Of a stretch of 36,110 nucleotides of DNA, positions 22,213 through 36,110 are shown in pieces. Numbering within the stretch: the stretch's first letter is position 1; each line of letters opens with the position of its first letter. Source of the stretch: Actinomycetota bacterium (lineage in GTDB: Bacteria; Actinomycetota; CADDZG01; WHSQ01); contig JACDCD010000024.1 of NCBI GenBank assembly GCA_013694625.1, positions 1-36,110 of the forward strand, written 5' to 3'. A program made the position numbers and the translations under genes. The notes under the pieces were generated by a model. It was not told where the DNA came from. It saw only the letters and a program-made list of their open reading frames with translations, and did no database searches.

Positions 22213-22225
22213 ACCGCCTCCATGG

Positions 22226-22453
22226 CTAACGCCCCAGTGCGTGGATAGCGACAACGACCATGCTCAGGCCGCCGCCGACGGACGAGCCGGTGACACCCAG
22301 CAGCGCCATGCTTCGCCCGATCTCGCGGACCACCGCGTTGCTCCGCACGGGCGTGCCGGTACCCGACACCGCATGCAGAGCCTCGAGCCGGGTCCCGGGC
22401 ACGTGAATGGCGTCGCGCCCGGGGCGGCGCCCCCCGGGCCGGAGGCCGGCCAT
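22226..22453 (-). CDS. 75-aa single-pass membrane protein between mraZ and rsmH
   Basis: ATG at 22453 overlaps the mraZ stop by one base (TGATG, a reinitiation junction). An AGGAG lies 11 nt upstream and the stop is 13 bp before rsmH. The product has a basic, Gly/Arg-rich N-terminus (MAGLRPGGRRPGRDAI), a middle segment ending NAVVREIGR, and a hydrophobic stretch at about 48-70 (SMALLGVTGSSVGGGLSMVVVAI), so the predicted topology is N-in with one membrane pass. I do not recognise a family. The slot between mraZ and rsmH is normally empty. The tight spacing on both sides argues for a real gene, but GC-rich DNA can leave frames open by chance. Confidence 0.6.
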   Translation of the reverse strand: MAGLRPGGRRPGRDAIHVPGTRLEALHAVSGTGTPVRSNAVVREIGRSMALLGVTGSSVGGGLSMVVVAIHALGR

Positions 22454-22884
22454 CAAAAGTTGAGCTCCTGAGCCAGCTCGTCGAGACGGCCCTCTTCGAC
22501 CTTCTCCTGCTCGGCCGCCCATCCGTCGGGGCTCCACACCTCTCCGTGATCGAGGGCGCCCGTCACGACCACCGCCCGGTCGATTCCCGCATAGGCGCGC
22601 AGATTGCCCGGGAGCGTGATGCGCCCCTGACGATCGACCTCGTCCTGGTGCGCGCTCGCCGCCACCAGGCGAACGACGGCGCGGGCGTCCTGTTTGCTCC
22701 GGCCGAGCAGGAGCAGGCTCCTCTCGAGATCCTCCCACCCGCGCCGGGACCACATGGCCACGCATCCGTTGAAATATTTGGTCAGGACCACTTGGCCCTC
22801 CTCCAGCTCGTCCCTGATGCGCGACGGGACGATCAACCGCCCTTTGGTATCGACGGTGTGACGGAATTCGCCGGTAAATGACAA
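22453..22884 (-). CDS. mraZ: MraZ, transcriptional regulator of the dcw cluster
   Basis: A 143-aa protein, the usual MraZ length, made of two SpoVT/AbrB-like halves. The first half shows FTGEFRHTVDTKGRLIVPSRIRDEL and the second QDEVDRQGRITLPGNLRAYAG, each with the DxxGRxxxP signature. MraZ binds direct repeats ahead of its own gene and usually represses the cluster. The TTG start at 22884 is preferred to upstream in-frame codons: it is preceded by GGAG (5 nt) and gives the family N-terminus. A matching 10-bp-period operator lies upstream, and the gene is followed by a TGATG-coupled small ORF. Confidence 0.93.
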   Translation of the reverse strand: MSFTGEFRHTVDTKGRLIVPSRIRDELEEGQVVLTKYFNGCVAMWSRRGWEDLERSLLLLGRSKQDARAVVRLVAASAHQDEVDRQGRITLPGNLRAYAGIDRAVVVTGALDHGEVWSPDGWAAEQEKVEEGRLDELAQELNF

Positions 22885-22950
22885 GGCTCTCCTGCTGTAA
22901 CTGGGTCTGAGGGAGGCGGCTGCGGGAACCGCGTTTGCTCCCCGATGCCA

Positions 22951-22983
22951 CCACTTCCCTCCATTTCGCACCACTTGGCACCA
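22951..22983 (-). promoter_or_regulatory. MraZ operator: 10-bp-period direct repeats
   Basis: On the minus strand three successive decamers read TGCCAAGTGG, TGCGAAATGG and AGGGAAGTGG. A further TGG (22983-22981) precedes them, keeping the exact 10-bp register. The core AA(G/A)TGG on one helix face matches the known MraZ-box architecture (short G-rich repeats at 10-bp spacing, e.g. AAAGTG in mycoplasmas and TGGGA in E. coli). The array begins at the -10 hexamer and runs over the predicted transcription start, as expected for autorepression. Confidence 0.75.
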
Positions 22984-23012
22984 CCGTAGCCCCCTCAGGA
23001 CCCACCAGTCAA
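22983..23012 (-). promoter_or_regulatory. Putative promoter of mraZ / dcw cluster
   Basis: TTGACT (23012-23007), an 18-bp spacer, then TACGGT (22988-22983), a TAnnnT-type actinobacterial -10. The predicted start is near 22976, inside the MraZ repeats. This is the main candidate promoter for the cluster through ftsI or beyond. Confidence 0.6.
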
Positions 23013-23024
23013 CGTTTGACCCTC

Positions 23025-23056
23025 TAATTACCATCTTGTTATTCGGATAATTACCA
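23025..23056. repeat. Two TAATTACCA direct repeats upstream of the mraZ promoter
   Basis: The nonamer TAATTACCA occurs at 23025-23033 and 23048-23056, 23 bp apart start to start (about two helical turns), just upstream of the mraZ -35. In this GC-rich sequence an exact AT-rich nonamer twice within 32 bp is unlikely by chance. It may be a site for an unidentified regulator or an UP-like element. Confidence 0.5.
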
Positions 23057-23197
23057 CAGTGTGATTTAGCTCGTGCGGTGATCGCGACGGATGCGCAAAG
23101 AGATCGTCCGTGGCCGGCGGTCCCGGATGGCCCCGGCTCGGTGTGAGGCGGCGGCGCGGCCTAGCTCTGCCGGACCCTCACGGACGGTCCAGGCGAT

Positions 23198-23716
23198 TCA
23201 GGCGGGTTGCGGCGCACGGGCGCGCGGCCCGCCGAGGTATTGCTCCCAGCACGGGTCGACACGATCCACAGCCACGACGATCCACACGCTCTCATGTGGA
23301 GGACGCGGCGCCCGGCGTAGCCGAAGGCCGACGTCTGCCGGGCTTCGGTTCTCCTTGCGCGCATTGCACGACCTGCAGGCGGCGACCACGTTGTCCCAGG
23401 ACTGCCCTCCGCCCCTGCTCTTGGGGATCACGTGGTCGACGTTCTCCGCCATCCGGCCGCAGTACTGGCAGGTGAACTCATCCCTCACGAACACCGCTCG
23501 GCGCGAGAGCGAGGAGCGCGCCCGGTAGGGAACCTTTACGAAGTAATTGAGCCGGACCACGCTCGGCGCGGACATCTCGATCGACTCCGAGTGGAACACC
23601 TGGCCGTTGGAGTGAAGCACCTCGGCCTTGCCCTTGAGGGCAAGCAGCAATGCCCGCCGCACCGGAACCACGCACAGCGGCTGGTAGGACACGTTGAGCA
23701 CCAGCGCTCTTGCCAC
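23198..23716 (-). CDS. HNH endonuclease family protein
   Basis: A 172-aa protein. The N-terminal half (ARALVLNVSYQPL, RRALLLALKGKAEVL, VRLNYFVKVPYR) is the conserved leader of a widespread actinobacterial HNH family. The C-terminal half is an HNH/zinc module: C84-x2-C87 in CQYCG, DHVIPKSRGG near 94-103, the NVVAAC segment, and C114-x2-C117 followed by NARKENR. The biological target is unknown; a role in DNA repair or defence is possible. The GTG at 23716 lies 8 nt after TATACT, so the message is probably leaderless and the longer upstream frame is not translated. Confidence 0.87.
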   Translation of the reverse strand: MARALVLNVSYQPLCVVPVRRALLLALKGKAEVLHSNGQVFHSESIEMSAPSVVRLNYFVKVPYRARSSLSRRAVFVRDEFTCQYCGRMAENVDHVIPKSRGGGQSWDNVVAACRSCNARKENRSPADVGLRLRRAPRPPHESVWIVVAVDRVDPCWEQYLGGPRARAPQPA

Positions 23717-23726
23717 GTGGACGAAG

Positions 23727-23756
23727 TATATAAACGGCCCTGGGACATCCCGGCAA
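23727..23756 (-). promoter_or_regulatory. Promoter of the HNH gene, likely leaderless
   Basis: TTGCCG (23756-23751), an 18-bp spacer and TATATA (23732-23727), overlapping a TATACT (23730-23725). With TATACT as -10, transcription would begin at or within about 3 nt of the GTG at 23716. No Shine-Dalgarno sequence is present. Confidence 0.6.
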
Positions 23757-23826
23757 TCCCGAGGGAGGGACCGGCACCGGTGGGGCGAGTGCCAGGGAAT
23801 GTGGTTCGGCGTGCTGAGAAATGGAA

Positions 23827-23881
23827 CTCGTGCCTGGGACCACACCATGTGTGGTGGGGACGCACGAGATCCCTCTTGTGC
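23827..23881. repeat. Imperfect palindrome upstream of the HNH gene (repeat family 2, copy B)
   Basis: CTCGTGC (23827-23833) and ACCACAC (23839-23845) pair with GTGTGGT (23849-23855) and GCACGAG (23862-23868), giving a two-part hairpin with a CAT loop. Its right half and the following bases (23844-23881) resemble 35321-35361 near the SOS promoter: both have ACCATG, TGTGGTG and GACGCAC in order. It lies in non-coding DNA between the HNH gene and the 71-aa ORF. Confidence 0.5.
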
Positions 23882-23915
23882 GCAACGGGCCACACGGAGT
23901 CGCCGCCCTCCCCGG

Positions 23916-24131
23916 TCAGAGGTCGGGGCCCTCCCCCATGCCCTGCACGTAGCGATGGAACGCGAGATGGTCCGAGCTGCACGAGGTCGACTCCCCACCC
24001 TTTCCAAGGATGACCCTGTCGGCCGGCCCTCCAGACGCGTCCCGATCCTCGGTGACCTCGACCACCTCCCAGCCGTCGGCGAGAAGGCCCCGCAGGCGCT
24101 CGAGCTCCGGGTCATCGCCCCAACCCGCCAC
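23916..24131 (-). CDS. Small hypothetical protein, 71 aa
   Basis: The GTG start at 24131 has a near-ideal ribosome binding site (AGGAGG 4-5 nt upstream). The product starts MAGWGDDPELERLRGLLADG and continues WEVVEVTEDRDASG with a balanced, coding-like composition and a compact alpha/beta pattern, unlike the Arg/Pro-rich shadow frames around it. No transmembrane segment or known motif is visible. It is transcribed away from the MoxR copy 2 operon and towards the HNH gene. The family is unknown. Confidence 0.55.
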   Translation of the reverse strand: MAGWGDDPELERLRGLLADGWEVVEVTEDRDASGGPADRVILGKGGESTSCSSDHLAFHRYVQGMGEGPDL

Positions 24132-24275
24132 ACGTCCTCCTCGCCTGGTCGACGTCGTCCTGACCCCTCGAGCCTACCTCCGGCGACGGCCCCGGTCCGG
24201 GAAAAGCCCGGTCAGGATAACGAGCGGGGCGCTGCTAACCTGATGACAGCGATCCACAGGGAGGGACACCTCGAA

Positions 24276-25247
24276 ATGACAGCCTCGTCAGGGCGCGACA
24301 TCGACGGTTTTCAGGCTGCATTCGAACGCATCGTGGCCAACGTCGAACGTGCGGTGCAGGGCAAGGGGGAAGCGGTAAGGCTCGCGTTGGTGGCGCTCAT
24401 CGGCGAGGGTCATCTCCTGCTCGAAGACGTTCCGGGCGTGGGGAAGACGATGCTGGCGAAGTCGCTCGCCAAATCCATCAATTGCACCTGGCGGCGGATC
24501 CAATTCACCCCCGACCTTCTGCCCACCGATATCACAGGCGTCAACATCTGGGACGCTGCCGGGGAGAGGTTCGAGTTCAAACCAGGCGCCGTATTTGCAA
24601 ACATCTGCCTGGGCGACGAAATCAACCGCGCCTCCCCGAAGACCCAATCCGCGCTACTCGAGTCGATGGAGGAGCGTCAGGTGACGGTCGACACCACCAC
24701 GTACAAGTTGCGGGAACCGTTCATGGTCATTGCAACCCAGAACCCCATAGAGCACGAGGGTACCTACCCGCTCCCCGAATCCCAGCTCGACCGCTTCATG
24801 ATGCGCGTCTCCATGGGATATCCGAGCCGCAGCGCCGAGCTCGAGATGCTCGACAAGCACGGAAGCCATGCGCCCCTGGATGAGCTCGAGCCCGTCACCG
24901 ATGCCCAGGAGGTCGTCGGGATGATAGCGACGGCGCGCCAAACCCACGTCGCAGCCACCCTCAAACGCTACATCGTCGATCTCACCGAGTCCACCCGCGA
25001 TCACCCCGACGTCTATCTCGGGGCCAGCCCGCGCGCCTCTCTCTACCTGCTGAAAGCCTCGCGCGCGCTTGCGTCGAGCCGAGGCCGCGACTACGTCGCA
25101 CCCGACGACATCAAAGACCTCACGGTCCCCGTTCTCGCCCACCGCGTGCTGCTGGCGCCGGAGGCCCAGATGCGGGGCGGAGGCGCCGAGGACGTGCTAG
25201 AGGGTCTGGTCGGCAGCGTGCCGATCCCCGCGCGCCAGCAGGCCTAG
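24276..25247 (+). CDS. MoxR-family AAA+ ATPase (copy 2)
   Basis: A 323-aa paralogue of the first MoxR gene. Walker A is DVPGVGKT at about 51-58; Walker B and its extension are NICLGDEINRASPKTQSALLESMEERQVTV. IATQNPIEHEGTYPLPESQLDRF and YLGASPRASLYLLKASRA follow. This copy has the canonical GVGKT where copy 1 has GVAKT. ATG at 24276 has GGGAGGG about 11 nt upstream; an in-frame ATG at 24243 is the alternative. It is followed after 10 bp by a DUF58 gene and then a transglutaminase, the classical MoxR-DUF58-TgpA set. Confidence 0.93.
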   Translation: MTASSGRDIDGFQAAFERIVANVERAVQGKGEAVRLALVALIGEGHLLLEDVPGVGKTMLAKSLAKSINCTWRRIQFTPDLLPTDITGVNIWDAAGERFEFKPGAVFANICLGDEINRASPKTQSALLESMEERQVTVDTTTYKLREPFMVIATQNPIEHEGTYPLPESQLDRFMMRVSMGYPSRSAELEMLDKHGSHAPLDELEPVTDAQEVVGMIATARQTHVAATLKRYIVDLTESTRDHPDVYLGASPRASLYLLKASRALASSRGRDYVAPDDIKDLTVPVLAHRVLLAPEAQMRGGGAEDVLEGLVGSVPIPARQQA

Positions 25248-25257
25248 TCCCCAGGAC

Positions 25258-26544
25258 GTGCCCACCACCCGCGGCCGGCTTGTAGCCGCCACCGGCTTCA
25301 TTGCCTTCGTGGTGGGTCGTTTGTTCGGCGCGACTCCACTCGAGCAGGTTGGCTTCGGCCTCATTGTCCTGGTAGCGGTGGCCGTCGGAGTCGTCCGCCT
25401 GGGGCGTCATGACATCGGCGTCGAGCGCTCGGTCAGTCCCGAACGCGCCCGCCCCGGGCAGCCGGTCTCGGTGAGGCTGAAGCTGGTCAATCGCGGGCGG
25501 GGGCCTGCGCCGCTCATGCTGTTCGAAGATCGCTTGCCTTCGGGTTTGGGGGGAGCATCACGTTTCGCCCTCAAGGGTGTCGAGGCGGGCGGGCACCGGA
25601 CGACGCAGTACGAGGTGAAGCCGGCGCGCCGGGGCCTCTACGCAGTCGGTCCCCTGGAGATGTTGTCCGTGGATCCCTTCGGCCTTGCGGGGGTGCGCTC
25701 GGAGGCCGCCGGGACTGCGCGCTTCCTCGTGCACCCCGCCGTTGAGCGTTTGACGTTGCCGCGCGACATGGGCGAGCAGCGGAGTCTCGCCTCGTCTGCG
25801 CTTCGTCAACCGACCGGCGCCCAGGGCGAGGAGTTCTACACCTTGCGGGAATACGTCGAAGGCGACGACCTTCGCAAGATTCACTGGGCGTCAACGGCCA
25901 AGCGGCGCAAGTACATGATCCGGCAGGAAGAGACCCCCTGGCACACGCGGGCAACGGTTCTCGTAGATGATCGCGCGGGCTCCTACGATGGCGCCTACAG
26001 CAGTTTCGAGCGCGCCGTCGAGGGCGCCGCATCCCTCGCCCACCTCTACCACCGTTCCGGCTACAGCCTGAGGCTCGCCGGTGCGCACCACCCCGGGCTA
26101 CCCGCCGGAAGAGGACTCGACAACCTCCACAGGTGCCTCGATCTGCTGGCGACGCTGCAGGCCCGCCCCGATGTCCCCGATCCCCTGCCCGCCAAGCTTG
26201 CGTCGCTCGAGGCCGGAGGAAGCCCGGAGGGCACCCTCGTGGTCGTGACCGGAACCCCCTCGGGGTCGCTGGCGGCGGTCTGCACCCGCGCCCGCCGCCG
26301 CTTCAGGGAGGTGGTGGTGGTGAGCTATCCGGCGCACCGGTACGGGAGTGGCCCCACCACCATGGCGCGTTGGGAGAGCGAGAAGGCGACGATGGAAGCG
26401 ATACGCCTGCTGTCCCGGTCCGGCCTTCGCGCGCTTGTCGTCGGTCCCGGTGAGCCGCTGGCCCTTGGCTGGACGACCGTCTCCTCCGGCGCGCGGCACC
26501 GGGGGGGTGAAGCAACGTGGGCTCAGAGGCCAGAGCTCGTCTAG
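25258..26544 (+). CDS. DUF58 domain protein (copy 2)
   Basis: A 428-aa protein. It has two N-terminal hydrophobic segments (about 6-20 and 25-43), a beta-rich region (SVSPERARPGQPVSVRLKLVNRG) and the DUF58 hallmark EEFYTLREYVEGDDLRKIHWASTAKRRKYMIRQEE at about 190-225, followed by a von Willebrand-like segment (TRATVLVDDRAGSY). It is the presumed partner of MoxR copy 2. The GTG start is 10 bp after the MoxR stop. The 3' end overlaps the transglutaminase gene by 28 bp, so the three genes form one operon. Confidence 0.92.
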   Translation: MPTTRGRLVAATGFIAFVVGRLFGATPLEQVGFGLIVLVAVAVGVVRLGRHDIGVERSVSPERARPGQPVSVRLKLVNRGRGPAPLMLFEDRLPSGLGGASRFALKGVEAGGHRTTQYEVKPARRGLYAVGPLEMLSVDPFGLAGVRSEAAGTARFLVHPAVERLTLPRDMGEQRSLASSALRQPTGAQGEEFYTLREYVEGDDLRKIHWASTAKRRKYMIRQEETPWHTRATVLVDDRAGSYDGAYSSFERAVEGAASLAHLYHRSGYSLRLAGAHHPGLPAGRGLDNLHRCLDLLATLQARPDVPDPLPAKLASLEAGGSPEGTLVVVTGTPSGSLAAVCTRARRRFREVVVVSYPAHRYGSGPTTMARWESEKATMEAIRLLSRSGLRALVVGPGEPLALGWTTVSSGARHRGGEATWAQRPELV

Positions 26545-28793
26545 GGCTGGCCGGGCTGTTGCTCGCCACCCTGGCCGGGTTCAACCGGGTCTTCGACGCA
26601 GGCGACTTCTTCGGCCCGGCGCTACTGGGTATGGCACTGGCTTGGGCCATCCTGATCGCCGCCAGGGCGAAGGGCATACGCGCCCACGTCACTGCGCTGG
26701 TTTCCGCCGCCGCCCTGCTCTGGTATCTCGCCGTCGTGTTCGAGTCCCCCTCTGTGGTTTACGGGCTCCCGACCGGCCGCACGTTCGGAGGGCTTGCTCT
26801 GGCCCTCGGGCGGATTGGGCAACAGAGCCAGCTCGACTACGCGCCGGTCCCCGTGCGTCCCGGATACATGATCCTGGTCGTCGTTGGAATGTGGGGCGCC
26901 GCAACGCTCGCGGAGCTCGCCTCGTTCGTGTGGCGCCGGCCGTTGCTCGCAAGCCTCCCCTGCGTGATCTTGTTCGCCGTGGCGCTCATCTTCGGCAACC
27001 GAACCGGTGCTTTCTTCTTCGTGGCCCTCTGGCTCGGCGCGCTGCTCACCTACTGGGCGCTCGAATCGTCCTACCTTCTGCGCTCGTGGGGGTCGTGGGT
27101 GTCGACCTGGCACGACGGTCCGGAGGACGAGGCGCCATCTTCGATCACCGGTGGCATCGCCCGGGGCATGGGGGCGACCTGTGTCGCGGCCGCCCTGATC
27201 GCTCCCGTGCTGCTGCCCTCGTTCGGCGGCGGAATGTCGTGGCGCAGCGGAAGCGGAGGCTCCGGGAGCGGGGGCAACGGAGCGGCCGTGCCGGGAGGCG
27301 TCATCGATCACCTCGTGTCGATGAAACCCAGGCTCGTGGCGCGCAACCCGGTTGCGTTGTTCTCGGTGCGCTCACCGGAGCCGTCCTACTGGCGGCTGAT
27401 CACACTCGCGAACTTTGACGGCGTCTCGTGGCAGCCGCTCCGGTTCAACGGCACCGATGTCGCCAGCGGAGGCTTCTCGGAGGTCGCGGACGTCCCCCCA
27501 CAGGGCCGTCGAGTGACTCAGTCCTTTACGATCCAGGGGCTCGGCGGGCAGCTCCTCCCCGCCGCCCCCCAGCCGGTTGCGATAGCGACCGACGAGGACA
27601 TCTATGACGAGACGCGCGTGGACCCTACGAGCGGCTATCTGCAGCTCTACGGCAACCTCGGGCCGGGCAGGACCTACTCGGTCGTATCGTCGGTCCCCGA
27701 TGTCGGCTACAAGGAGCTCCGAGGGGAGCGCTTTTTCGATCATCCGCTCGAGGACTACTCGCAGCTGCCGCCGGATCTCGATGTGGAGCGTGTCCGCCGT
27801 ATAGCAGCCGACTGGAGCGAGGGCGCCGACACACCGCTCGACCGGCTGCTCGCACTCCAGGACAGACTCAGGGAGTTCAGATACAACCTCTACGTCGAGG
27901 ACAAGGCGTCGTCCGACTACCTCCTCCGCTTCCTTACACGCACCCGCGAGGGCTATTGCCAGCAGTTCGCGACCGCATTCGCCGTGCTCGCCCGAACGCT
28001 CGGGTTCTCGACGAGGGTCTCAGTCGGCTTCCTGCCCGGCGCGCCGTCTCCGAGCGACCCCACCCAGTTCACCGTCCTCGGCACCGATGCGCACGCGTGG
28101 CCGGAGGTCTACTTCCGTGACTTCGGCTGGATTGCGTTCGAGCCGACCCCCCGCGATGATGGAGAGGCGGTGCCTCCTGCCTACACCGAACCCCCGATCC
28201 CCACCGATGGCATCGCAGGCCTGACGGGTGGGCCCGGCCAGACACCCAGTAGCGCCGACCTCGCCCGCGGCGTCGAGCCCGGCCGGCGCGCCGGAGCGGG
28301 GCTCTCCCTCACCGACCAGACCGTGGTGGACGGCGCGCCGGGACAATTCCGGTGGGAGCAGACCTTCACCCGCATCGCGCTCGGCGTGCTGGCCGCCGTA
28401 GCGCTGTTCCTGATTGCTGTGCCCCTGCTCAAGCAAGCGAAGGTCAGGCAGAGGTACCGCAGCGCGTCGGGACCGGTCGAGCTCGCCTCGGCCGCCTTCG
28501 CGGAGTTCGAAGAGGAGGCGACCGAGCTGGCGAGCCCTCGCCTTCGTGCAGAGTCGGCGCCCGCCTATGCCCGCCGGGTGGCAGGCCGGCGGAGCGTGTC
28601 GGAGCCCGACGCGGTGAAGCTTGCCCGCATCTACGAAGCCGCCCAGTACGCACTGACGGGCGTGCGCCCCGGCGAAGCCGACGAGGCGAAGACCCTGGCG
28701 CGCCGGCTCCGGGCTCGCCTGTGGGCCAACTCGTCATGGTGGGACCGGGCACAGAGGCTGTTCTCGGTGCGGGGGCTGCGCCGAGCGGCCTGA
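26517..28793 (+). CDS. TgpA-like membrane transglutaminase (DUF3488 - transglutaminase - DUF4129)
   Basis: A 758-aa protein. About six N-terminal transmembrane helices (to about residue 235) precede a Gly/Ser linker and a large extracytoplasmic region with a transglutaminase-like core. The probable triad is Cys481 in TREGYCQQFATAF, His526 in TDAHAWPEVYF, and the acidic residue in IAFEPTPRD (about 542). A further helix (about 624-643) and a cytoplasmic DUF4129-like tail follow. TgpA homologues are periplasmic or outer-face cysteine enzymes; the actinobacterial substrate is unknown but probably envelope protein. GTG at 26517 overlaps DUF58. Confidence 0.92.
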   Translation: MGSEARARLGLAGLLLATLAGFNRVFDAGDFFGPALLGMALAWAILIAARAKGIRAHVTALVSAAALLWYLAVVFESPSVVYGLPTGRTFGGLALALGRIGQQSQLDYAPVPVRPGYMILVVVGMWGAATLAELASFVWRRPLLASLPCVILFAVALIFGNRTGAFFFVALWLGALLTYWALESSYLLRSWGSWVSTWHDGPEDEAPSSITGGIARGMGATCVAAALIAPVLLPSFGGGMSWRSGSGGSGSGGNGAAVPGGVIDHLVSMKPRLVARNPVALFSVRSPEPSYWRLITLANFDGVSWQPLRFNGTDVASGGFSEVADVPPQGRRVTQSFTIQGLGGQLLPAAPQPVAIATDEDIYDETRVDPTSGYLQLYGNLGPGRTYSVVSSVPDVGYKELRGERFFDHPLEDYSQLPPDLDVERVRRIAADWSEGADTPLDRLLALQDRLREFRYNLYVEDKASSDYLLRFLTRTREGYCQQFATAFAVLARTLGFSTRVSVGFLPGAPSPSDPTQFTVLGTDAHAWPEVYFRDFGWIAFEPTPRDDGEAVPPAYTEPPIPTDGIAGLTGGPGQTPSSADLARGVEPGRRAGAGLSLTDQTVVDGAPGQFRWEQTFTRIALGVLAAVALFLIAVPLLKQAKVRQRYRSASGPVELASAAFAEFEEEATELASPRLRAESAPAYARRVAGRRSVSEPDAVKLARIYEAAQYALTGVRPGEADEAKTLARRLRARLWANSSWWDRAQRLFSVRGLRRAA

Positions 28794-28822
28794 CGGGCCG
28801 CGGCAAAGGAGGGCAAGCACCC

Positions 28823-29407
28823 TCAGGTAACGGCGGTCGGCACGCTCCTCGTCTCTTCGACCCGGAGCACGGCCGGCGCGCCCGACACGCCGGCCCATTG
28901 CAGCTCGGCGGGCTCCTGTACCGGCTCTTCTTCCTGCTGCAGAGTCGCCTCGACTTCGTTCAGAGCGGCGATGAAGCGTTCCCGGTCGTAGAGATACCCC
29001 GGGACGCGCCCGTCTGCGTTTCTTACGAGATCGTCGATGGTGGTGAAGAAAGCCATCTGTCCCTCCTTGAGGGCGTCGTATATAACCCCTTCGGAATTGC
29101 CCACCTCATAGATGCTGGCGCCGTCGGACATGAGCTTGACGGCTGAGAGGTGCTCTTCGAGCCGCTCCTTCTTGCGCAGATAGGTGAAGGCGCGCCGCAC
29201 CTGCTGCAAGCTCATCCCTGCGTTCAGAAGCGAACAAACCATCTTCAGCGCCACGAGATCCCTGAACGAGTACATCCGCCTGACCCCCGGGCGTCCCCCC
29301 GTTCTCTGAACGGATGGGCGCACCAAAGCGATCCGATCCCAGTAGCGAAGTTGGTGAGCAGTGCTGCCGGTGAAACGGGATGCCTGCTCTGCGGTGAACC
29401 CCTCCAT
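28823..29407 (-). CDS. MerR-family transcriptional regulator
   Basis: A 194-aa protein. The N-terminal winged-helix is typical of an actinobacterial MerR subgroup: GFTAEQASRFTGSTAHQLRYWDRIALVRPS, then VRRMYSFRDLVALKMVCSLLNAGMSLQQVRRAFTYL. A central segment (KLMSDGASIYEVGNSEGVIYDALKEGQMAFFTTIDDL) probably forms the effector or dimer domain. The C-terminus is acidic (EVEATLQQEEEPVQEP). No metal-binding Cys cluster is visible, so metal sensing is unlikely. ATG at 29407 is preferred over the GTG at 29419, which abuts GGGAG with no spacing. Confidence 0.88.
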   Translation of the reverse strand: MEGFTAEQASRFTGSTAHQLRYWDRIALVRPSVQRTGGRPGVRRMYSFRDLVALKMVCSLLNAGMSLQQVRRAFTYLRKKERLEEHLSAVKLMSDGASIYEVGNSEGVIYDALKEGQMAFFTTIDDLVRNADGRVPGYLYDRERFIAALNEVEATLQQEEEPVQEPAELQWAGVSGAPAVLRVEETRSVPTAVT

Positions 29408-29503
29408 CAGAACGCGCACCTCCCACTCAAGAATTTTGTGTCATTTTCGTTCCGCAGGCTGACGATTCCCCATCCCCAGAAGGAGGACCTGCGTTCTCAT
29501 CCA

Positions 29504-29533
29504 ATGTAGCGTGCGCCATCACGACGCGACAAG
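29504..29533 (-). promoter_or_regulatory. Putative promoter of the merR-type gene
   Basis: TTGTCG followed after 17-18 bp by TACATT (about 29509-29504), in the 190-bp gap between the DUF3040 gene and the MerR gene. The predicted leader is about 90 nt with GGGAGG near its end. Confidence 0.45.
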
Positions 29534-29598
29534 GTCGATGAACGCTAGATGTCGAGAGCGCGAACTTTTCTAGCCGCAGCGAGCCCGCCGCGGGAGGG

Positions 29599-29967
29599 CT
29601 ACTTGCCTTTGTAACGTTGGCGAACGCGCTTCTCCCATTCGGCCAACCACTGCGCAACCTGATCCCTGCGGCCCGGATCGGTAGACCGCTGGCCCGCCGC
29701 AATCTCGCGCAGCGCACCTGTAACGAGGACGATGCCTGCAACCATCGAAGCAAATGCCACGACGCCGGCGATTACCCACCCGGAAACGAAAAAAAGGATC
29801 AGAAAGGCAAACCCCACCAGGAACGTGGCAATCCCCCACTTGCTGCGCCTGATCTCGTCCATACGCGGGGCGCTTCGTCGGACTCCTCGCGCAAACGCCG
29901 GGTCCTCTTGATAGAGCTGTTTCTCGATGTCATCGAGGATCCGCTTTTCACGCTCAGACAAAGGCAC
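29599..29967 (-). CDS. DUF3040 small membrane protein
   Basis: A 122-aa protein typical of DUF3040. The family N-terminal helix is MPLSEREKRILDDIEKQLYQEDPAFA, followed by two adjacent transmembrane helices (about 45-62 and 66-84) and a charged C-terminus (QWLAEWEKRVRQRYKGK). DUF3040 is largely restricted to actinobacteria and has no assigned function. The GTG at 29967 stands 9 nt after a perfect TATAAT, and there is no Shine-Dalgarno, so a leaderless mRNA is likely. It therefore appears transcriptionally separate from dinB, 48 bp upstream. Confidence 0.9.
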   Translation of the reverse strand: MPLSEREKRILDDIEKQLYQEDPAFARGVRRSAPRMDEIRRSKWGIATFLVGFAFLILFFVSGWVIAGVVAFASMVAGIVLVTGALREIAAGQRSTDPGRRDQVAQWLAEWEKRVRQRYKGK

Positions 29968-29976
29968 TATGGAGTG

Positions 29977-29982
29977 ATTATA
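29977..29982 (-). promoter_or_regulatory. TATAAT -10 box for a leaderless DUF3040 transcript
   Basis: A consensus TATAAT on the minus strand, 9 nt before the GTG start, in the 48-bp dinB-DUF3040 gap. No good -35 is visible. Transcription should start within about 1-3 nt of the start codon. Confidence 0.55.
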
Positions 29983-30015
29983 GAGAAGCTCCGGCGCGTA
30001 TTCGGCCCCCTGAGT

Positions 30016-31191
30016 CTAGGGTGGGTCGAGAAGCGAGGCGAGGTCAAGAGCGCGTTCTCCGAAGCGGTTACGGATCGAATCGATCGCCTTCGACGCCTCC
30101 TGACGTCTCGGGCCGGTTGTGGTCGACAGCAGGTCGAGCTGGCGCGCCGGGGGGCCGGGGGCCAATCCGGAGACACTCACTCCGAGCAGCCGGATCCTGG
30201 GTCTTGCCGGGTCGAGCTTCAGATAAGTCGCCCTGGTGACGCCGTAGAGGTCGGCCGTGGCGTCGACCTCCTCCGGCAGCGTCCGGGAGCGGGTGATCGT
30301 CACGAAGTTGGAGAAGCGAACCTTCAGGGTCACGGTCCGTCCGCACAGCCCCTTCGCCCTCAGCCTCCCCGCAGTGCGATCCGCAAGGCGCAGGATCTCG
30401 CGCAGCACCACCTCGGTGTCGTCGAGGTCGTGCGGGTAGGTTTCCTCCGAGCCTACCGACTTTGCCGCCTCACCCGGGGTGACCGGGCGGTCGTCATTGC
30501 CTTTGGCCAGCGAGTGGAGGTGTGCGCCGAGTGCGTCCCCCAGGGCGCGCTCGAGTGTCCGGCGTGGGATATGGGCGAGATCTCCGACCGTCTTGAGCCC
30601 GAGGCGCTCGAGCGCCTCACCGGTCTGCGCTCCGACCCCCCATAGTGCGGTGACCGGCAGAGGGTGGAGGAATGCCTCGACACCCTCGGGTCTGATCACC
30701 AGAAGGCCGTCGGGCTTGGCGCGCGCGGACGCAACCTTTGCAAGGAACTTGTTCGGTGCGACACCCACCGTGCAGGTCAAGCCGAGCTCTGCGATGCGCC
30801 CCTTGATTCGGCGGCCGATAGCTTCGGCGTGACCGAAGAGCTTGACCGAGCCCGACACATCCAGGAAGGCTTCGTCCAACGAGAGGGGCTCCACCAGGGG
30901 GGTGAACGAGTTGAACACTGCGCCGATCTTGGCCGACACCTCTGTGTAGGCGGAGAAGTCGTTGGGCACGAACACGGCGTGGGGACAGAGGCGACGCGCC
31001 CTGATCATGGGCATCGCCGAGGTCACCCCGAAGGCGCGCGCTTCGTAAGAAGCCGAGGTGACGACGCCGCGGCCGCCCTGGCCGCCCACGATCAGCGGGA
31101 CTCCGGCGAGGGAGGGATCCTTGATGACCTCGACCGATGCGTAGAACGCGTCCATGTCGACGTGGAGGATGTTCGAGGGCGCCCCGGTCAC
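30016..31191 (-). CDS. dinB: DinB, Y-family DNA polymerase IV
   Basis: A 391-aa translesion polymerase. Catalytic acidic residues are intact: Asp12 in ILHVDMDAFYASVE and Asp106-Glu107 in PLSLDEAFLDVSG. This separates it from ImuB, which lacks them. The steric-gate region, the thumb (CTVGVAPNKFLAKVASARAKPDGL) and the HhH segment (LWGVGAQTGEALERLGLKTVGDLA) are normal. A C-terminal QLDLL fits a beta-clamp-binding motif. GTG 31191 is the best start, though a TTG nine codons upstream is possible. It is third in the SOS operon, behind dnaE2 after a 115-bp gap containing a hairpin. Confidence 0.92.
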   Translation of the reverse strand: MTGAPSNILHVDMDAFYASVEVIKDPSLAGVPLIVGGQGGRGVVTSASYEARAFGVTSAMPMIRARRLCPHAVFVPNDFSAYTEVSAKIGAVFNSFTPLVEPLSLDEAFLDVSGSVKLFGHAEAIGRRIKGRIAELGLTCTVGVAPNKFLAKVASARAKPDGLLVIRPEGVEAFLHPLPVTALWGVGAQTGEALERLGLKTVGDLAHIPRRTLERALGDALGAHLHSLAKGNDDRPVTPGEAAKSVGSEETYPHDLDDTEVVLREILRLADRTAGRLRAKGLCGRTVTLKVRFSNFVTITRSRTLPEEVDATADLYGVTRATYLKLDPARPRIRLLGVSVSGLAPGPPARQLDLLSTTTGPRRQEASKAIDSIRNRFGERALDLASLLDPP

Positions 31192-31222
31192 CGACGGCCC
31201 GAGACTCTGCAGTCGCAAACCC

Positions 31223-31259
31223 TGGTCGAAAATGTGCGCACAGCCGCGCTTTTCGACCA
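31223..31259 (-). repeat. Hairpin between dnaE2 and dinB
   Basis: TGGTCGAAAA and TTTTCGACCA form a perfect 10-bp inverted repeat around a 17-nt loop that itself contains GCGC...GCGC. It lies 32 bp before the dinB start. It could be an RNA-processing or stability element between the cistrons. There is no T-run downstream, and the geometry does not fit a LexA box. Confidence 0.5.
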
Positions 31260-31306
31260 GAGAACGCTCCCGGCAATCGTGCCGGAGGGAGTGATGCTCC
31301 GGAGTC

Positions 31307-34300
31307 TCACCCTCCGGCGCTGCCGCCGCTCGAGTGCCACAGGCGCGCCGGAGGTCGCAGGTCGCCGGAGGGAATGTGCAGGCCTCCTGCCTGTTTGCGG
31401 CGCTGGCGCCCGAGTGCGGTGGCTCGGGAGTGCCCGGCTCGGCGGTCGGAGGCCAACTCGGCGAGGTCGAATACCTCCTGGGCCACCACGGTGAGCCCGA
31501 CATTATGCGGGTTGGTGGGGTGGGTCAAAGATGCGCCACCCCGTTTTCGCACCACGCCTCTGACCGCCATCAACCACGAATGGAAAACGGTGTGCGCACA
31601 GCGCGCCTGGACGCGCTCGAACACGGTCACGTCGACGGGGCCGGTGTAATCGTCGAGCGTGACAAAAATGATCCTCTGGCCCGAGCGGATGGCGGGGGTC
31701 TGGCTGGCGACCTTGACCCCGGCGATCCACACATCCGAGTTGTTGCGCTCATCCCCCAGACGAGCCGCCGGCACACAGCCGAGCTCGGTGAGCAACGGGA
31801 GGTACAGCTCCATGATGTGCCGGCTGGCGTCGATGCCCGTCACTTCGAGCTCGGCCTCGGTTTCCTCGAGCTGGGTGTAGGGCGGAAGGCCCGCCAGCGC
31901 CTCGTGATCGGGTTCGTCAATCTCGAGCGACAACTGCGAACCCGCACTCGGTGGCGAAACGGCGCCGAGAGTCGTGGCACGCCACATGAGCTCGCGCTTG
32001 CCGCGGCTTCCCCTGATGCCGTCGAGGGCTCCGATATGGACGAGGTCGGTCAACACCGGACGTGATAGCTCGGCGCGCCGCCACAGATCCTCCATCGAGG
32101 TGAACGGGCCGGCCAGGCGCGCCGAGACGATCGAGTCCATCTCGGCCTCGGACATCCCTTTCACCTCCGAGAGCGCAAGCCTGATCCCCTTGGGCTCCGG
32201 CGCCGAGTGGGTGACAGATGTGGATAGTTCGCACCCACCCTGGGGGACGGACTCGGCCCGGTAGACGGTGTCGGAGGCATTGACGTCGATTGGGAGGATC
32301 GGGATGCCCATTGCCCTGGCGTCGGCGACGATGAGCCGGCGGGGATACATGCCCGGGTCGTGGGTCAGCACCCCGGCCAGGAACTCGACCGGGTAGTGCG
32401 CCTTCAGCCACGCCGAGACATAAGTGGGGAGCGCGAACGCAGCGGCGTGGGATTTGCAGAACCCGAACGAGGCGAACGCCACGACCTCCTTCCACAACAG
32501 GGTCGCCTCCGAGGCGGTGAAGCCGTTGGTCACGGCCGAGCCCTGAAACCACGCGCCGAGTCCGCCTCGAGGCGAGGCCACGTTCACCGGCTCGACCTGG
32601 ACCTCGTCCTCGGCGGAGCCGAGGTGGCGCCTCACATAGTCGGCGTCGTCCAGCGAGCAGCCCGTCACCGCGGCGATCACACGGATCACCTGTTCGTGAT
32701 AGACGATGATGCCGTTTGTCTCGGCCAGGATCGGCTTGAGGCTCGGATGGGGGTAGCGCGCCTGTTCGAACCCATGGCGGCGATCGAGAAACGGCGACAC
32801 CATGTCCGACTTGACCGGCCCCGGCCGGAACAACGAGATGTCGATGATCAGATCCTCGAAGCGATTGGGTTGAAAACGCGCCAGCAACTCGCGTTGACCG
32901 GGAGATTCGATCTGAAAGCATCCGAGTGTGCGAGAGCTCGAGATGAGCCTGAAGGTAGCCAAGTCTTCGTGCGGGAGTGCGTCGAGGTCCAGCTCGATGT
33001 TCTCGGTGCGCGCGATCTCGGCGCGTGCATGCGCGATCGAAGACAGCATCCTCACGCCGAGAACATCGAGCTTCACGAGCCCGAGATCCTCGACGTCGTC
33101 TTTATCGGCCTGGAGCATCGTGAAGCCTTGCCACGACGACTCCATCGGCACGCGATCGGCGAGGTCCGACGAGGACAGGATCACACCCGAAGGATGAAGC
33201 GCAAGGTGGCGTGGCCATCCGTCGATGGTGAGGCATAACCCGAAGAGCTGGTCGAGCTGGCCCGATCTAAGATTGGATCCGCTCAGTTCCGGGAGTTGAT
33301 CGAGGGCGCGCGGGATATCCCGGGCGCGGACATGCGGGAACGCTTTTGCGACGAGGTCTATCTCTTCGGCGGGCAGTCCCAGCGCCTTGCCGACTTCGCG
33401 AATTGCAAGGCGCGCCCTGAAAGTATCGACCATGCAGCAAACCGCGGTCTGCTCGGCGCCATAAGTCGCCGCTATGTAGTCAAGCACTTCTTCACGTCTG
33501 TGCGATTCGACGTCGACATCGATGTCGGGGAGCTCGTCGCGTCTCGAGTTCATAAAGCGCTCGAACAACAGGTTGTAACGAACAGGGTCGACATCGGAGA
33601 TGCCTAGTACATAGCAGACCAGCGAACCAGCTGCACTCCCCCGGCACGCACATCTGATCCCCATCACCTTGCGAACATGGTCGACGATGTCGGCCACGAG
33701 AATGAAATAGGCCGGCCACCCCATTCGAGAGATGAGCCTCAGCTCCTGCTGGAGGCGATCGTCGACTTCTCTTGTAAGCCGGTCATACCGGTGGCGCGCC
33801 CCTTCGAGGCAGCGCTTTGCAAGCATGCCCGCAGGATGCTGGCCTCGGGGGATGGGCATCTGTGGGAAGTGATAACCCTCGAGATCGAGATCGAAGTCGC
33901 AGGCATCCGCAATGCGCATCGATTCTTCGGCCGCCTCTGGTGCGTCACTGAAGAGGCTTCGCATCTCGCGTGCACTCTTCATGGAGTATTCGGAGTTGGC
34001 CCGGAGGGCCCTGGTACGGGACAACGGAACGATGTCTTTGATTGCGTGCAGGAGCTCGTGTGTGCCCGCGCCCTCGGGGGTCACATAATGAACGTCATTG
34101 GTTGCAACCGCCGGGATCTTTGTCTGCGCAGCAATATTCAAGAGGCGGTCTCGCAACGCGTGGTCGCCGTAACCACGGTGGTCGAAGACCTCGATGCGAT
34201 AGCCGTCGCCGATCGCGGCGCGCCACCTGTGGGCCGCGGCGATCGCCTCCGGGAGAGCACCGGCCGCCGCGAGCCGCGCGACTTCGCCGCGGGCGCAACC

Positions 34301-34687
34301 GGAGAGCACGAACAACCCGTCCGAGCGTTGTGCGATCTTCTCGAGCGAGGTGTGCGGCGCGCCGCGCTCGTGCGTCAGGTGCGCCTCGCTGATGAGCCGG
34401 CACAGGTTGGCATAACCCACCTTGTTCTGCGCAATGACCGTGACGTGCTCGGGCCGTGCAGGTTTGACGGGGCCGCCAACCGTCAGCTCCGCCCCGAAGA
34501 TCGGCTTGACGCCGGCGTCGCGGCACGCCTTCGAGAATCGCACCGCGCCGGTGAGCGCGTCGTGGTCGGTCATTGCAACTGCCTCGAACCCGGCCTCGGG
34601 GGCGGCATGGGCCAGTGTCTCGGCCGGGACGGCCCCGTCCAGCAGCGACCACGTCGTGTGACAATGGAGATGGACGAACCCACTCAT
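31307..34687 (-). CDS. dnaE2: DnaE2, error-prone DNA polymerase III alpha subunit
   Basis: A 1126-aa C-family polymerase of the damage-inducible DnaE2 class. The N-terminal PHP domain begins VHLHCHTTWSLLDG. The polymerase Asp triad is visible: PDIDVD at about 387-392 (two Asp) and Asp541 in LVKLDVLGVRML. A tandem HhH and a C-terminal OB-fold (RIIFVTLDDYTGPVDVTVFE) follow. DnaE2 mediates mutagenic bypass after DNA damage. Residues about 815-830 (QGGCELSTSVTHSA) are encoded by a palindromic repeat and look like an in-frame insertion. A second palindrome-rich patch is at about 31514-31543. ATG 34687 has only a weak ribosome binding site. Confidence 0.95.
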   Translation of the reverse strand: MSGFVHLHCHTTWSLLDGAVPAETLAHAAPEAGFEAVAMTDHDALTGAVRFSKACRDAGVKPIFGAELTVGGPVKPARPEHVTVIAQNKVGYANLCRLISEAHLTHERGAPHTSLEKIAQRSDGLFVLSGCARGEVARLAAAGALPEAIAAAHRWRAAIGDGYRIEVFDHRGYGDHALRDRLLNIAAQTKIPAVATNDVHYVTPEGAGTHELLHAIKDIVPLSRTRALRANSEYSMKSAREMRSLFSDAPEAAEESMRIADACDFDLDLEGYHFPQMPIPRGQHPAGMLAKRCLEGARHRYDRLTREVDDRLQQELRLISRMGWPAYFILVADIVDHVRKVMGIRCACRGSAAGSLVCYVLGISDVDPVRYNLLFERFMNSRRDELPDIDVDVESHRREEVLDYIAATYGAEQTAVCCMVDTFRARLAIREVGKALGLPAEEIDLVAKAFPHVRARDIPRALDQLPELSGSNLRSGQLDQLFGLCLTIDGWPRHLALHPSGVILSSSDLADRVPMESSWQGFTMLQADKDDVEDLGLVKLDVLGVRMLSSIAHARAEIARTENIELDLDALPHEDLATFRLISSSRTLGCFQIESPGQRELLARFQPNRFEDLIIDISLFRPGPVKSDMVSPFLDRRHGFEQARYPHPSLKPILAETNGIIVYHEQVIRVIAAVTGCSLDDADYVRRHLGSAEDEVQVEPVNVASPRGGLGAWFQGSAVTNGFTASEATLLWKEVVAFASFGFCKSHAAAFALPTYVSAWLKAHYPVEFLAGVLTHDPGMYPRRLIVADARAMGIPILPIDVNASDTVYRAESVPQGGCELSTSVTHSAPEPKGIRLALSEVKGMSEAEMDSIVSARLAGPFTSMEDLWRRAELSRPVLTDLVHIGALDGIRGSRGKRELMWRATTLGAVSPPSAGSQLSLEIDEPDHEALAGLPPYTQLEETEAELEVTGIDASRHIMELYLPLLTELGCVPAARLGDERNNSDVWIAGVKVASQTPAIRSGQRIIFVTLDDYTGPVDVTVFERVQARCAHTVFHSWLMAVRGVVRKRGGASLTHPTNPHNVGLTVVAQEVFDLAELASDRRAGHSRATALGRQRRKQAGGLHIPSGDLRPPARLWHSSGGSAGG
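31514..31543. repeat. Short palindrome in the 3' part of dnaE2 (possible family 1 remnant)
   Basis: GGGGTGG and CCACCCC form a 7-bp stem around a 12-nt loop. On the minus strand the order GGGTGG, ATCT, ACCCAC parallels the dnaE2 copy of repeat family 1 and is read in the same codon phase (GG..SLTHP here, GG..TSVTHS there). It could be a decayed or shortened copy, or chance. Confidence 0.3.
32201..32244. repeat. Palindromic repeat inside dnaE2 (repeat family 1, copy 2)
   Basis: GTGGGTG (32207-32213) and CACCCAC (32232-32238) pair around an 18-nt core. Read on the minus strand it shares GGGTGGGTG, GAA, ATCCACAT, CACCCAC and CGGC, in this order, with the intergenic palindrome at 7691-7739. It keeps the dnaE2 frame open. 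Confidence 0.6.
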
Positions 34688-34769
34688 CCCGGCGGGTCTA
34701 GTCGGGGGCCCCCACAGGAGCCCGGATGCCAGGGGGGCCGGGCGGGGCGTACGTGGACCGGCGCGCTAG

Positions 34770-35081
34770 TCAGTCCCACAACCTCGCCATCCGCCAGAAG
34801 TCCCCGGCGCGGTCCCTGTAGAGGTCGTAGACGGCCGAGAACGTTTGCAGGAACCCGTCGGCGTCGAGGTCGCCGGTCGACAGGAGCCCGGCCGGGCGGG
34901 CAAGGACCCGGTAGTACTCGCGGTCGCGCACCTTGCCGTGCCCGTTCCACCACTCCCCTGCCTCCCGCCAGACGGTGAGGTGCTGGTCGATCTCGTATCG
35001 GCGCCCGCGCCAGAGAAACGCCGCCGGCCCACCTTCTGTGTCCGGGGTGACGTCGATCGCCTCGTCGTACCGCTTTGCCAC
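34770..35081 (-). CDS. DUF6504-type protein, first gene of the SOS operon
   Basis: A 103-aa soluble protein with the pattern VTPDTEGGPAAFLWRGRRYEIDQHLTVWREAGEWW followed by REYYRVLARPAGLLSTGDLDADG. It closely resembles the small actinobacterial proteins (DUF6504) encoded beside dnaE2, imuB or dinB genes; I assign it by pattern and context. Its biochemical role is unknown, and a helper function in translesion synthesis is inferred from position. GTG at 35081 has GGAGGT 7 nt upstream. It is followed by dnaE2 after 82 bp. Upstream is a LexA-controlled promoter with a terminator-bearing leader. Confidence 0.78.
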   Translation of the reverse strand: MAKRYDEAIDVTPDTEGGPAAFLWRGRRYEIDQHLTVWREAGEWWNGHGKVRDREYYRVLARPAGLLSTGDLDADGFLQTFSAVYDLYRDRAGDFWRMARLWD

Positions 35082-35126
35082 TCACCAGACCTCCACGCCG
35101 ATTGCCACGAGGCGCTGCCCGATCCG

Positions 35127-35172
35127 TTAAAAGAAGGGCCCGACCAACCTGGTGCGAAGGCCGGTCGGGCCC
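35127..35172 (-). terminator. Intrinsic terminator within the SOS operon leader
   Basis: Perfect 10-bp inverted repeat GGGCCCGACC (35136-35145) / GGTCGGGCCC (35163-35172) with a 17-nt loop. On the minus strand it is followed at once by TTCTTTTAA (35135-35127). This is the clearest intrinsic terminator in the window. It lies between the LexA promoter (start near 35245) and the first gene (35081), so it would stop transcription after about 118 nt unless overcome. Confidence 0.75.
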
Positions 35173-35245
35173 CTGCAGAGTCCGGGCCCGGACGCCGGTG
35201 GGGGCCGGGGAGTCCCCCAACCGGTCGGTCTCCGAGTCGAACGTA
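35128..35245 (-). ncRNA. Candidate SOS-induced leader RNA / attenuator
   Basis: The predicted transcript from the LexA promoter folds into three stems. P1 is CCGGT-t-GGGGG / CCCCCACCGG (35225-35196). P2 is the self-complementary GTCCGGGCCCGGAC (about 35194-35181). P3 is the intrinsic terminator. The early segment GACCGACCGG (35230-35221) is also complementary to the GGTCGG of the terminator's second arm, so an anti-terminator fold is possible. No leader peptide ORF with a ribosome binding site is obvious. It may be a free small RNA of about 118 nt, an attenuator, or both. Confidence 0.45.
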
Positions 35246-35252
35246 TGTTCGA
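35237..35252 (-). promoter_or_regulatory. LexA (SOS) box
   Basis: TCGAACGTATGTTCGA, a perfect palindrome matching the actinobacterial/mycobacterial LexA consensus TCGAAC-N4-GTTCGA. It shares a base with the -10 hexamer and covers the predicted transcription start, the standard arrangement for LexA repression. Confidence 0.88.
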
Positions 35253-35281
35253 TAGTAGCCGCCTCCGGACAGGCCCGTCAA
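35252..35281 (-). promoter_or_regulatory. SOS promoter of the DUF6504-dnaE2-dinB operon
   Basis: TTGACG (35281-35276), an 18-bp spacer and TACTAT (35257-35252). The LexA box overlaps the -10 and start region. The predicted start is near 35245, which gives a roughly 160-nt leader. Confidence 0.7.
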
Positions 35282-35748
35282 CCCCCGTGGCGCAAATCAC
35301 GCCAACCTTCTGCCCCCGGAACCATGATGTGGTGCCTGGAGACGCACCACCTCTATTGCACTCTGGAGCTCGGTTCCCGGGCCCGCTGGTGCAAATAAAG
35401 CGTCTCCTGGCGCGCCGAGCCGGCGACCGGCATCCTCAGTGAGGCGCCTGCGCCTCGGCCGCCTCGCTACCCGGGGATAGGCTGCGAGCGAGGGGTTCGC
35501 CCGGCGCTCCAACGCCTCCTCCGGCGGGTCTAGACCGGCGTCGGCTTGACCGCTCCACGAGGTAACAGCGGTTCCACCCAATTGTCGAAAGGGCAAAGAG
35601 ATGAACGATCAAGAGATACGCGACCTGCTTACACAACCTCGACGCCGGGCAGGCCGGAAGGCTCCATTGCACTGTGGAACCCCCTAAACGGGCTCCAGAG
35701 TGCAATGAAGCTTGATACAGCTCGGGGGCCCGGCTGGCCGCGTTGCCT
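35282..35748. repeat. Hairpin-rich non-coding region, possible MITE-like element
   Basis: 467 bp without a convincing gene. It holds ATTGCACTCTGGAGC at 35355-35369 and its perfect inverse at 35692-35706, bounding about 352 bp; a near copy (ATTGCACTGTGGAAC) at 35666-35680 that pairs with the latter into a long hairpin (35658-35713); GGAGACGC/GCGTCTCC at 35338-35345 and 35400-35407; GTGGTGC/GCACCAC at about 35330-35350; and GAGGCGC-CT-GCGCCTC at 35441-35456. A 28-codon plus-strand ORF (35601-35687) runs into the right-hand hairpin. The 35658-35713 hairpin also follows the DUF59 stop and may end that transcript. Confidence 0.5.
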
Positions 35749-36063
35749 CTAGACGATGCCGAGTGCGGACTTCGCCAGCGGCGACATCTTTTCGGGGCTC
35801 CACGGCGGGTACATCACGAGCTCGGTCGTCACCTGGCCGATCCCCTCGATGTGGGCCGTCGCATCCTTGATCTGCTCGTCGATCATCGGCCCGATGGGGC
35901 AGCCCATCGTCGTCAGTGTGAATTCGACCTTCACGTCCCCCTTGTCGGAGATGTCGACCTCGTAGACGAGGCCGAGGTTCATTATGTCGATGCCGAGCTC
36001 GGGGTCGTCGACCGTCTTGAGCGCCTCGGTCACCTCTTCGCGGATGTCCTCTGTGTTTGCCAT
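35749..36063 (-). CDS. DUF59/MIP18 family Fe-S cluster assembly protein
   Basis: A 104-aa single-domain protein. The family pattern is complete: ALKTVDDPELGIDIMNLGLVYEVDI, a beta strand VKVEFTLTTMGCPIGPMIDEQI with the conserved Cys, and VTTELVMYPPWSPEKMSPLAKSALG at the end. Members (SufT/PaaD/MIP18-like) help mature Fe-S proteins. In actinobacteria the gene is often the last of the suf operon, which would lie beyond the right edge of this window. ATG at 36063 has TAGGGCG just upstream. The stop is followed after about 36 bp by a long hairpin. Confidence 0.92.
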   Translation of the reverse strand: MANTEDIREEVTEALKTVDDPELGIDIMNLGLVYEVDISDKGDVKVEFTLTTMGCPIGPMIDEQIKDATAHIEGIGQVTTELVMYPPWSPEKMSPLAKSALGIV

Positions 36064-36110
36064 GCGCCCTAGTTTACGCCCACAGGTCAGACGCTTATTC
36101 CCAGAAGGCG

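Follow-up and report, generated by a model that had tools for sequence, protein, structure and literature searches.

A folded leader RNA and a predicted terminator between a LexA-type promoter and the mutagenesis operon in one family of Actinomycetota

SOS mutagenesis is normally described as being controlled by LexA at the initiation of transcription. The locus described here, which lies in a 36,110-nucleotide stretch of DNA from an Actinomycetota bacterium (the window), raises the question of what a transcript that has left a LexA promoter still has to pass before it reaches the genes for error-prone polymerases. All the window's features given below are on the minus strand. The operon has the gene order DUF6504-dnaE2-dinB, and dnaE2 was found behind DUF6504 in every family genome whose contig extends far enough. 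The first gene encodes a DUF6504 protein of 103 amino acids (34770..35081; Pfam PF20114, E 1.3e-13) with a GTG start codon at 35081 and, from the sequence, a likely Shine-Dalgarno GGAGG at 35090..35094. The second encodes a DnaE-type polymerase III alpha subunit (31307..34687; Pfam PHP, DNA_pol3_alpha, finger, HHH_6 and OB); the protein fell below the cut-offs of both the NCBIfam DnaE and DnaE2 models and is called DnaE2-like, that is error-prone, by its gene context. The third encodes DNA polymerase IV (DinB; PF00817, E 3.3e-51; NCBIfam NF003015 above its cut-off), whose true start is probably inside the ORF at 30016..31503. The gap between DUF6504 and dnaE2 (34690-34769) is C-rich, includes GGGGGCCCCC and could form another hairpin. 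Weak DUF6504-like matches (33-36% identity) were also seen in Alphaproteobacteria, in Roseobacter-group genomes (loci L038 and L039), and a search of the full-text literature, mainly of its open part, returned no paper naming DUF6504.

Upstream of the operon, a promoter-motif scan and conservation within the family identified a sigma-70-type promoter, TTGACG-N18-TACTAT (35252..35281; TTGACG at 35281-35276 and TACTAT at 35257-35252), which was the sole promoter-like match in the scanned region 20000-36110. It adjoins the LexA operator TCGAACATACGTTCGA (35237..35252), one of only five copies of the perfect TCGAAC-N4-GTTCGA in the 2.72-Mb assembly (G000). The preliminary description had placed both elements at the right coordinates. 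Thirteen family genomes have a complete upstream region; in each of them TTGAC is followed after N17/18 by a -10 element adjoining the operator, and the 14-base operator core, CGAACATACGTTCG, is unchanged in 13/13 leaders. As the operator overlaps the core promoter of this DNA-damage operon, the genes are predicted to be under LexA (SOS) regulation. The spacing from the -10 element predicts A35244 as the transcript start, and the distance from the predicted start to the gene is 89-254 nt across the 13 genomes. The four other perfect boxes of the assembly (loci L001-L004) lie shortly upstream of ORFs, none of them with a leader; judged by sequence only, these ORFs encode an HNH/DUF222-like protein (L001), a radical-SAM protein (L002), a UvrD-type helicase (L003) and a DnaB helicase-like protein (L004). 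The base before GTTCG, read in gene orientation, is C in CGAACATACGTTCG of all 13 leaders and T in these four boxes.

The predicted transcript begins with ACGUUCG, the 3' half of the operator, and in every genome this start pairs with a downstream CG[A/G]AC, a motif present in 13/13 leaders. In the window, pairing analyses placed the 5' strand of this helix, P1 (GUUCG, a bulged A and CUCGGA), together with the predicted start A35244 at 35231..35244, and the 3' strand (UCCGGG-CC-CGGAC) at 35180..35192. Past the bulge the helix extends as P1b, whose sequence differs from genus to genus. P1 encloses the hairpin P3 (35195..35224), at the apex of which UCCCCGG (35211-35205) folds into a CCCC loop (35210-35207) closed by a U-G pair, the next pair being U-G or C-G. 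The UCCCCGG loop is invariant in 13/13 leaders. In longer leaders a variable P2 sits between P1 and P3, and in about six genomes the P2 region has a second C-rich (UCCCC) loop. This is the main feature that the preliminary description overlooked: the LexA half-site at the transcript start closes a fold that is conserved and whose C-rich loop is invariant. The LexA box of the leader may be held fixed by its second role in P1.

The pairing was compared with several kinds of control. When the P1 duplex of the first 20 nt was set against dinucleotide shuffles of the downstream region, nearly all genomes did better than the shuffles, with 0 to 42 of 500 being as good; the weakest duplex was the window's own (42/500), and in G005, where the duplex program favoured another partner, the full fold does show P1. 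Exchanging strands between genera weakened P1b from -13.9 to -8.8 kcal/mol (0/20000 permutations, one genome per genus) and P3 from -10.5 to -7.9 kcal/mol (1/20000). In an alignment made from sequence only, 87.3% of the cells pair as against 78.3% in shuffled alignments (0/500), with a covariation score of 0.335 as against 0.201 (0/500), and the pairing drops sharply once the partners are slid by one column. By folding energy alone the whole 164-nt leader is not unusually stable (z = -1.2); it is conservation across genera, not energy, that raises the leader above chance. The possibility that the downstream CGAAC is a second LexA half-site was rejected, as the CGGAC found in 5/13 keeps the RNA pair (G-U) and breaks the half-site, and there is no other half at N4. 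A leader-peptide attenuator was also rejected, since comparison of the leader ORFs found none common to the genera, and G012 and G005 have none at all in the 5' half.

How widely is this leader distributed? DUF6504 was found in 14/16 genomes of the window's family and also in other families, and every one of the 13 family genomes whose upstream region is complete (11 genera) has the promoter with the folded leader RNA. Sister families from the same class have no leader, and their LexA box is about 25-50 nt upstream of the start codon. For most of the other phylum members examined this distance is 30-90 nt, and nearly all of these other members lack the leader too. Its presence in 13/13 family genomes and its absence from the sister families suggest that it most likely arose within the window's family. 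The data are 14 usable leaders of one family (the 13 complete ones and a partial leader of G002), many of them in fragmented metagenome assemblies. A covariance model of P1-P3 found one copy per family genome, always at the DUF6504-dnaE2 operon, and gave no match at E <= 0.01 in the remainder of 297 phylum genomes; as the model was built from the family copies, only the absence elsewhere is new information. The window's own copy scored 8.2e-4 in one model search and was missed by a run with stricter filters. A weak match (G019:C11) was taken as chance, lying inside what by eye is an apparent ABC-transporter gene. None of the 4227 Rfam families matched the leader at or above its gathering score. 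The preliminary description knew of no DnaE2 operon built in this way, and a dnaE2 leader with a terminator was likewise not described in the full-text literature that we searched, to which subscription journals mostly do not belong. In another family, G025 (locus L030) has a LexA box about 290 nt upstream of a DUF6504-like gene, followed by a different hairpin, CCGCTC...GAGCGG around TTTTTT, perhaps an independent leader.

Downstream of P1, RNAfold predicted a terminator-like hairpin of 17 bp at 35134..35174 (35174-35158 paired with 35150-35134) with the outer stem GGGCCCGA/UCGGGCCC. It is followed by the T-rich tail CTTTTAA (35127..35133), recognised from the sequence and from family comparison, and the GTG of DUF6504 comes 45 nt past this tail, so that the structured leader and the hairpin are located before the first gene as had been described. 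The site had been called the best in the window, with a 10-bp stem; it does have the longest stem among the window's hairpin-plus-T-tail sites (the runner-up has 13 pairs and a poor tail), and the stem has 17 pairs rather than 10. Its folding energy is -32.5 kcal/mol, as against -17.1 +/- 2.9 for dinucleotide shuffles, 0/300 of which were as good. The interval from the hairpin to the first gene contains neither a further perfect LexA box nor a promoter-like site, which means that transcription of the operon has to start at the LexA promoter and cross the hairpin. In G003 (locus L008), a sequence of about 14 bases, GTCCAGACGTTTTG, is repeated in tandem, with three to four copies between the hairpin and the GTG.

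A check of the homologous loci for stem and T-run found the hairpin with a T-rich tail in 12/14 leaders, the partial G002 leader counted. Its usual build in these 12 is the outer stem GGGCCCGA/UCGGGCCC, usually a mismatch, and a variable inner stem. Because the outer stem is almost constant, standard pair counts on the terminator alone gave no more covariation than shuffles; the covariation evidence for the terminator is the swap test on the inner stem, in which exchanging strands between genera weakened the pairing from -15.9 to -10.6 kcal/mol (0/20000). A dispersed genomic repeat was rejected as an explanation, the near-palindrome GGGCCCGA...TCGGGCCC being only sporadic elsewhere. Over the nine bases after the hairpin in 10 genera, T occupies 50/90 positions (56%), whereas the leaders contain 16% T. 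We counted 92 hairpins with T-rich tails, one of them GGGGTCCGGC...GCCGGGCCCC-TTTCG, in 400 kb of a related genome, as against 54 in a Markov control (middle setting), suggesting that intrinsic terminators of this type are plausibly in use in the family. With a GC-rich hairpin and a U-rich tract both beyond chance, an intrinsic terminator is predicted at this position.

The tail is strong in G000 and G011 and is a weak tract in some genera. Since the T-runs are short or broken in several of them, such as G007 (TTAGTCATC) and G004 (TTGCATCTG), termination may be partial there. G012 keeps P1/P3 and has lost both hairpin and tail. The short leader of G010 (locus L018) has no separate hairpin and has UGUUUUU directly after P1, which could itself act as the terminator stem. 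The weak T-runs and the tail-less G012 fit a reading in which the hairpin is no terminator, its T-rich tail is there by accident, and the leader works on translation or on RNA stability. Highly structured leaders with a role in translation are known from SOS genes, and the tisB leader of E. coli acts on translation through a standby site (PMC7708055). Like the present operon, tisB has an SOS-induced mRNA with a long structured leader and, as we suppose here, control after LexA; unlike the dnaE2-operon leader, the tisB leader as described is without an intrinsic terminator (PMC7708055). We consider a non-terminating leader very improbable: the T content of the tail is far above the leader average, UGUUUUU directly follows P1 in G010, and we found no conserved helix that sequesters the Shine-Dalgarno sequence.

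If the hairpin does terminate, how might readthrough be controlled? Riboswitch-type transcription attenuators have a folded domain, a short linker, an intrinsic terminator and then the gene, and the present leader has the same layout; unlike them, it has no mutually exclusive antiterminator helix and no match to an Rfam riboswitch. Such a helix had been proposed in the preliminary description, from an early segment (35230-35221) and the second arm of the terminator. The string match is 8 bp, 35230-35223 with 35149-35142, and the proposal failed: the forced fold has -52.5 as against -69.1 kcal/mol, 16.6 kcal/mol worse, its ensemble probability is ~0 and it is not conserved. Of the overall picture given there, the LexA promoter, the structured leader and the terminator-like hairpin stand, without this antiterminator. 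Nor was a conserved alternative helix found elsewhere: in the 11 genomes compared, the best upstream partner of either terminator arm paired no better than shuffled upstream sequence did (z -1.8 to +1.0). P1/P3 and the terminator thus seem to be domains of their own, rather than the alternative helices of a switch, which would exclude each other. Pairing of GGCCCC on the 3' side of P3 with GGGGCC in the terminator 5' arm was seen transiently in partial-transcript folds of G000, and was rejected as shuffles did equally well and as it is missing in G015/G009. As a candidate partner of the loop CCCC, a GGGG is present at the base of the terminator in 10/12, and both sides hardly vary, leaving no covariation signal. 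We also compared the leader, by general description, with the ANTAR-target dual hexaloop RNA, in which two hairpins with hexaloops bearing A1 and G4 precede a terminator; the conserved loop UCCCCG has U at position 1, and this candidate was rejected.

That there is no conserved antiterminator and no uORF, and that tail strength varies, would suit a leaky terminator under no regulation, which simply lowers the output that a strong promoter gives the mutagenic operon, with P1/P3 merely stabilising the RNA 5' end. Such a throttle would have no need for an invariant loop or for a conserved, covarying P1 with a conserved bulge, and we regard it as improbable. The invariant loop and the maintained P1 argue instead for a partner that recognises the 5' domain, which could be a protein, a ligand, the RNA polymerase or, in trans, a target RNA. 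For the polymerase, the put RNA of phage HK022 is a precedent: it too is a nascent RNA folded close to the transcript start, from where it could act on RNA polymerase ahead of downstream terminators (PMC9378689); put is a phage element, and polymerase contact is here only a candidate.

Recognition of a target RNA in trans would have its counterpart in the 6C/B11 small RNA of Actinobacteria, which has a terminator at its 3' end. By analogy, the promoter would mainly make a stable SOS-induced small RNA of ~118 nt that binds G-rich sites in other mRNAs, and the operon would be expressed by readthrough. The would-be RNA has hairpins at both ends, its invariant UCCCCGG loop has no partner shown in cis, and about six genomes have the second UCCCC loop. 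C-rich hairpin loops are shared with 6C/B11 (RF01066; PMC10470900), whose mRNA targets are G-rich and whose mycobacterial form represses a target with a G-tract through these loops (PMC10470900). Unlike 6C/B11, the present leader has one invariant C-rich loop only, its closing helix begins in the LexA operator, and it lies in cis before an operon. It is not a 6C member: the RF01066 matches were all below the cut-off and elsewhere than at the locus. As the terminator is lost in G012 and every copy of the element that we found is at the operon, a small RNA seems rather unlikely to us.

We infer that premature termination with readthrough is the most economical reading, and we hold it an even call whether the locus is an attenuator leader that SOS induces and whose insulated sensing domain precedes the terminator. 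In such an attenuator, cleavage of LexA would let RNA polymerase start at about A35244, inside the operator. The extreme 5' end of the nascent RNA would pair with the CG[A/G]AC about 55-100 nt further on to form P1, presenting the CCCC-loop hairpin, and the independent hairpin with its U-rich tail would end most transcripts ahead of the ribosome-binding site, so that only readthrough transcripts would express DUF6504, dnaE2 and dinB. The fraction of readthrough would most likely be set by the P1/P3 domain, which would bind a factor or touch the polymerase directly, a competing antiterminator helix being the less likely route. It is conceivable, if doubtful, that P1 and the CCCC loop act as an RNA checkpoint that senses a factor or condition and licenses passage, expression then needing a second signal besides LexA cleavage.

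Among DNA-damage pathways, AlpA in Pseudomonas appears by analogy to have the most similar logic (PMC7969949). In the DNA-damage response of Pseudomonas aeruginosa, AlpA is a promoter-bound protein that lets polymerase pass intrinsic terminators (PMC7969949). Both systems have a damage-controlled operon and, as we suppose for the present one, intrinsic termination after the promoter that has to be bypassed, a second checkpoint; unlike AlpA, which is a protein on promoter DNA, the candidate here is a folded RNA behind the LexA operator.

In a whole family, a conserved RNA domain and a terminator-like barrier have thus been inserted downstream of the LexA promoter, ahead of the genes for error-prone polymerases. 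A single DNA sequence has two uses there, in repressor binding and in RNA folding, one strand of P1 being a LexA operator half-site. Switching on mutagenesis in these bacteria probably needs transcription past a second barrier after LexA has been removed and, if termination does occur at the hairpin, the leader would be an RNA-level gate on induced mutation.
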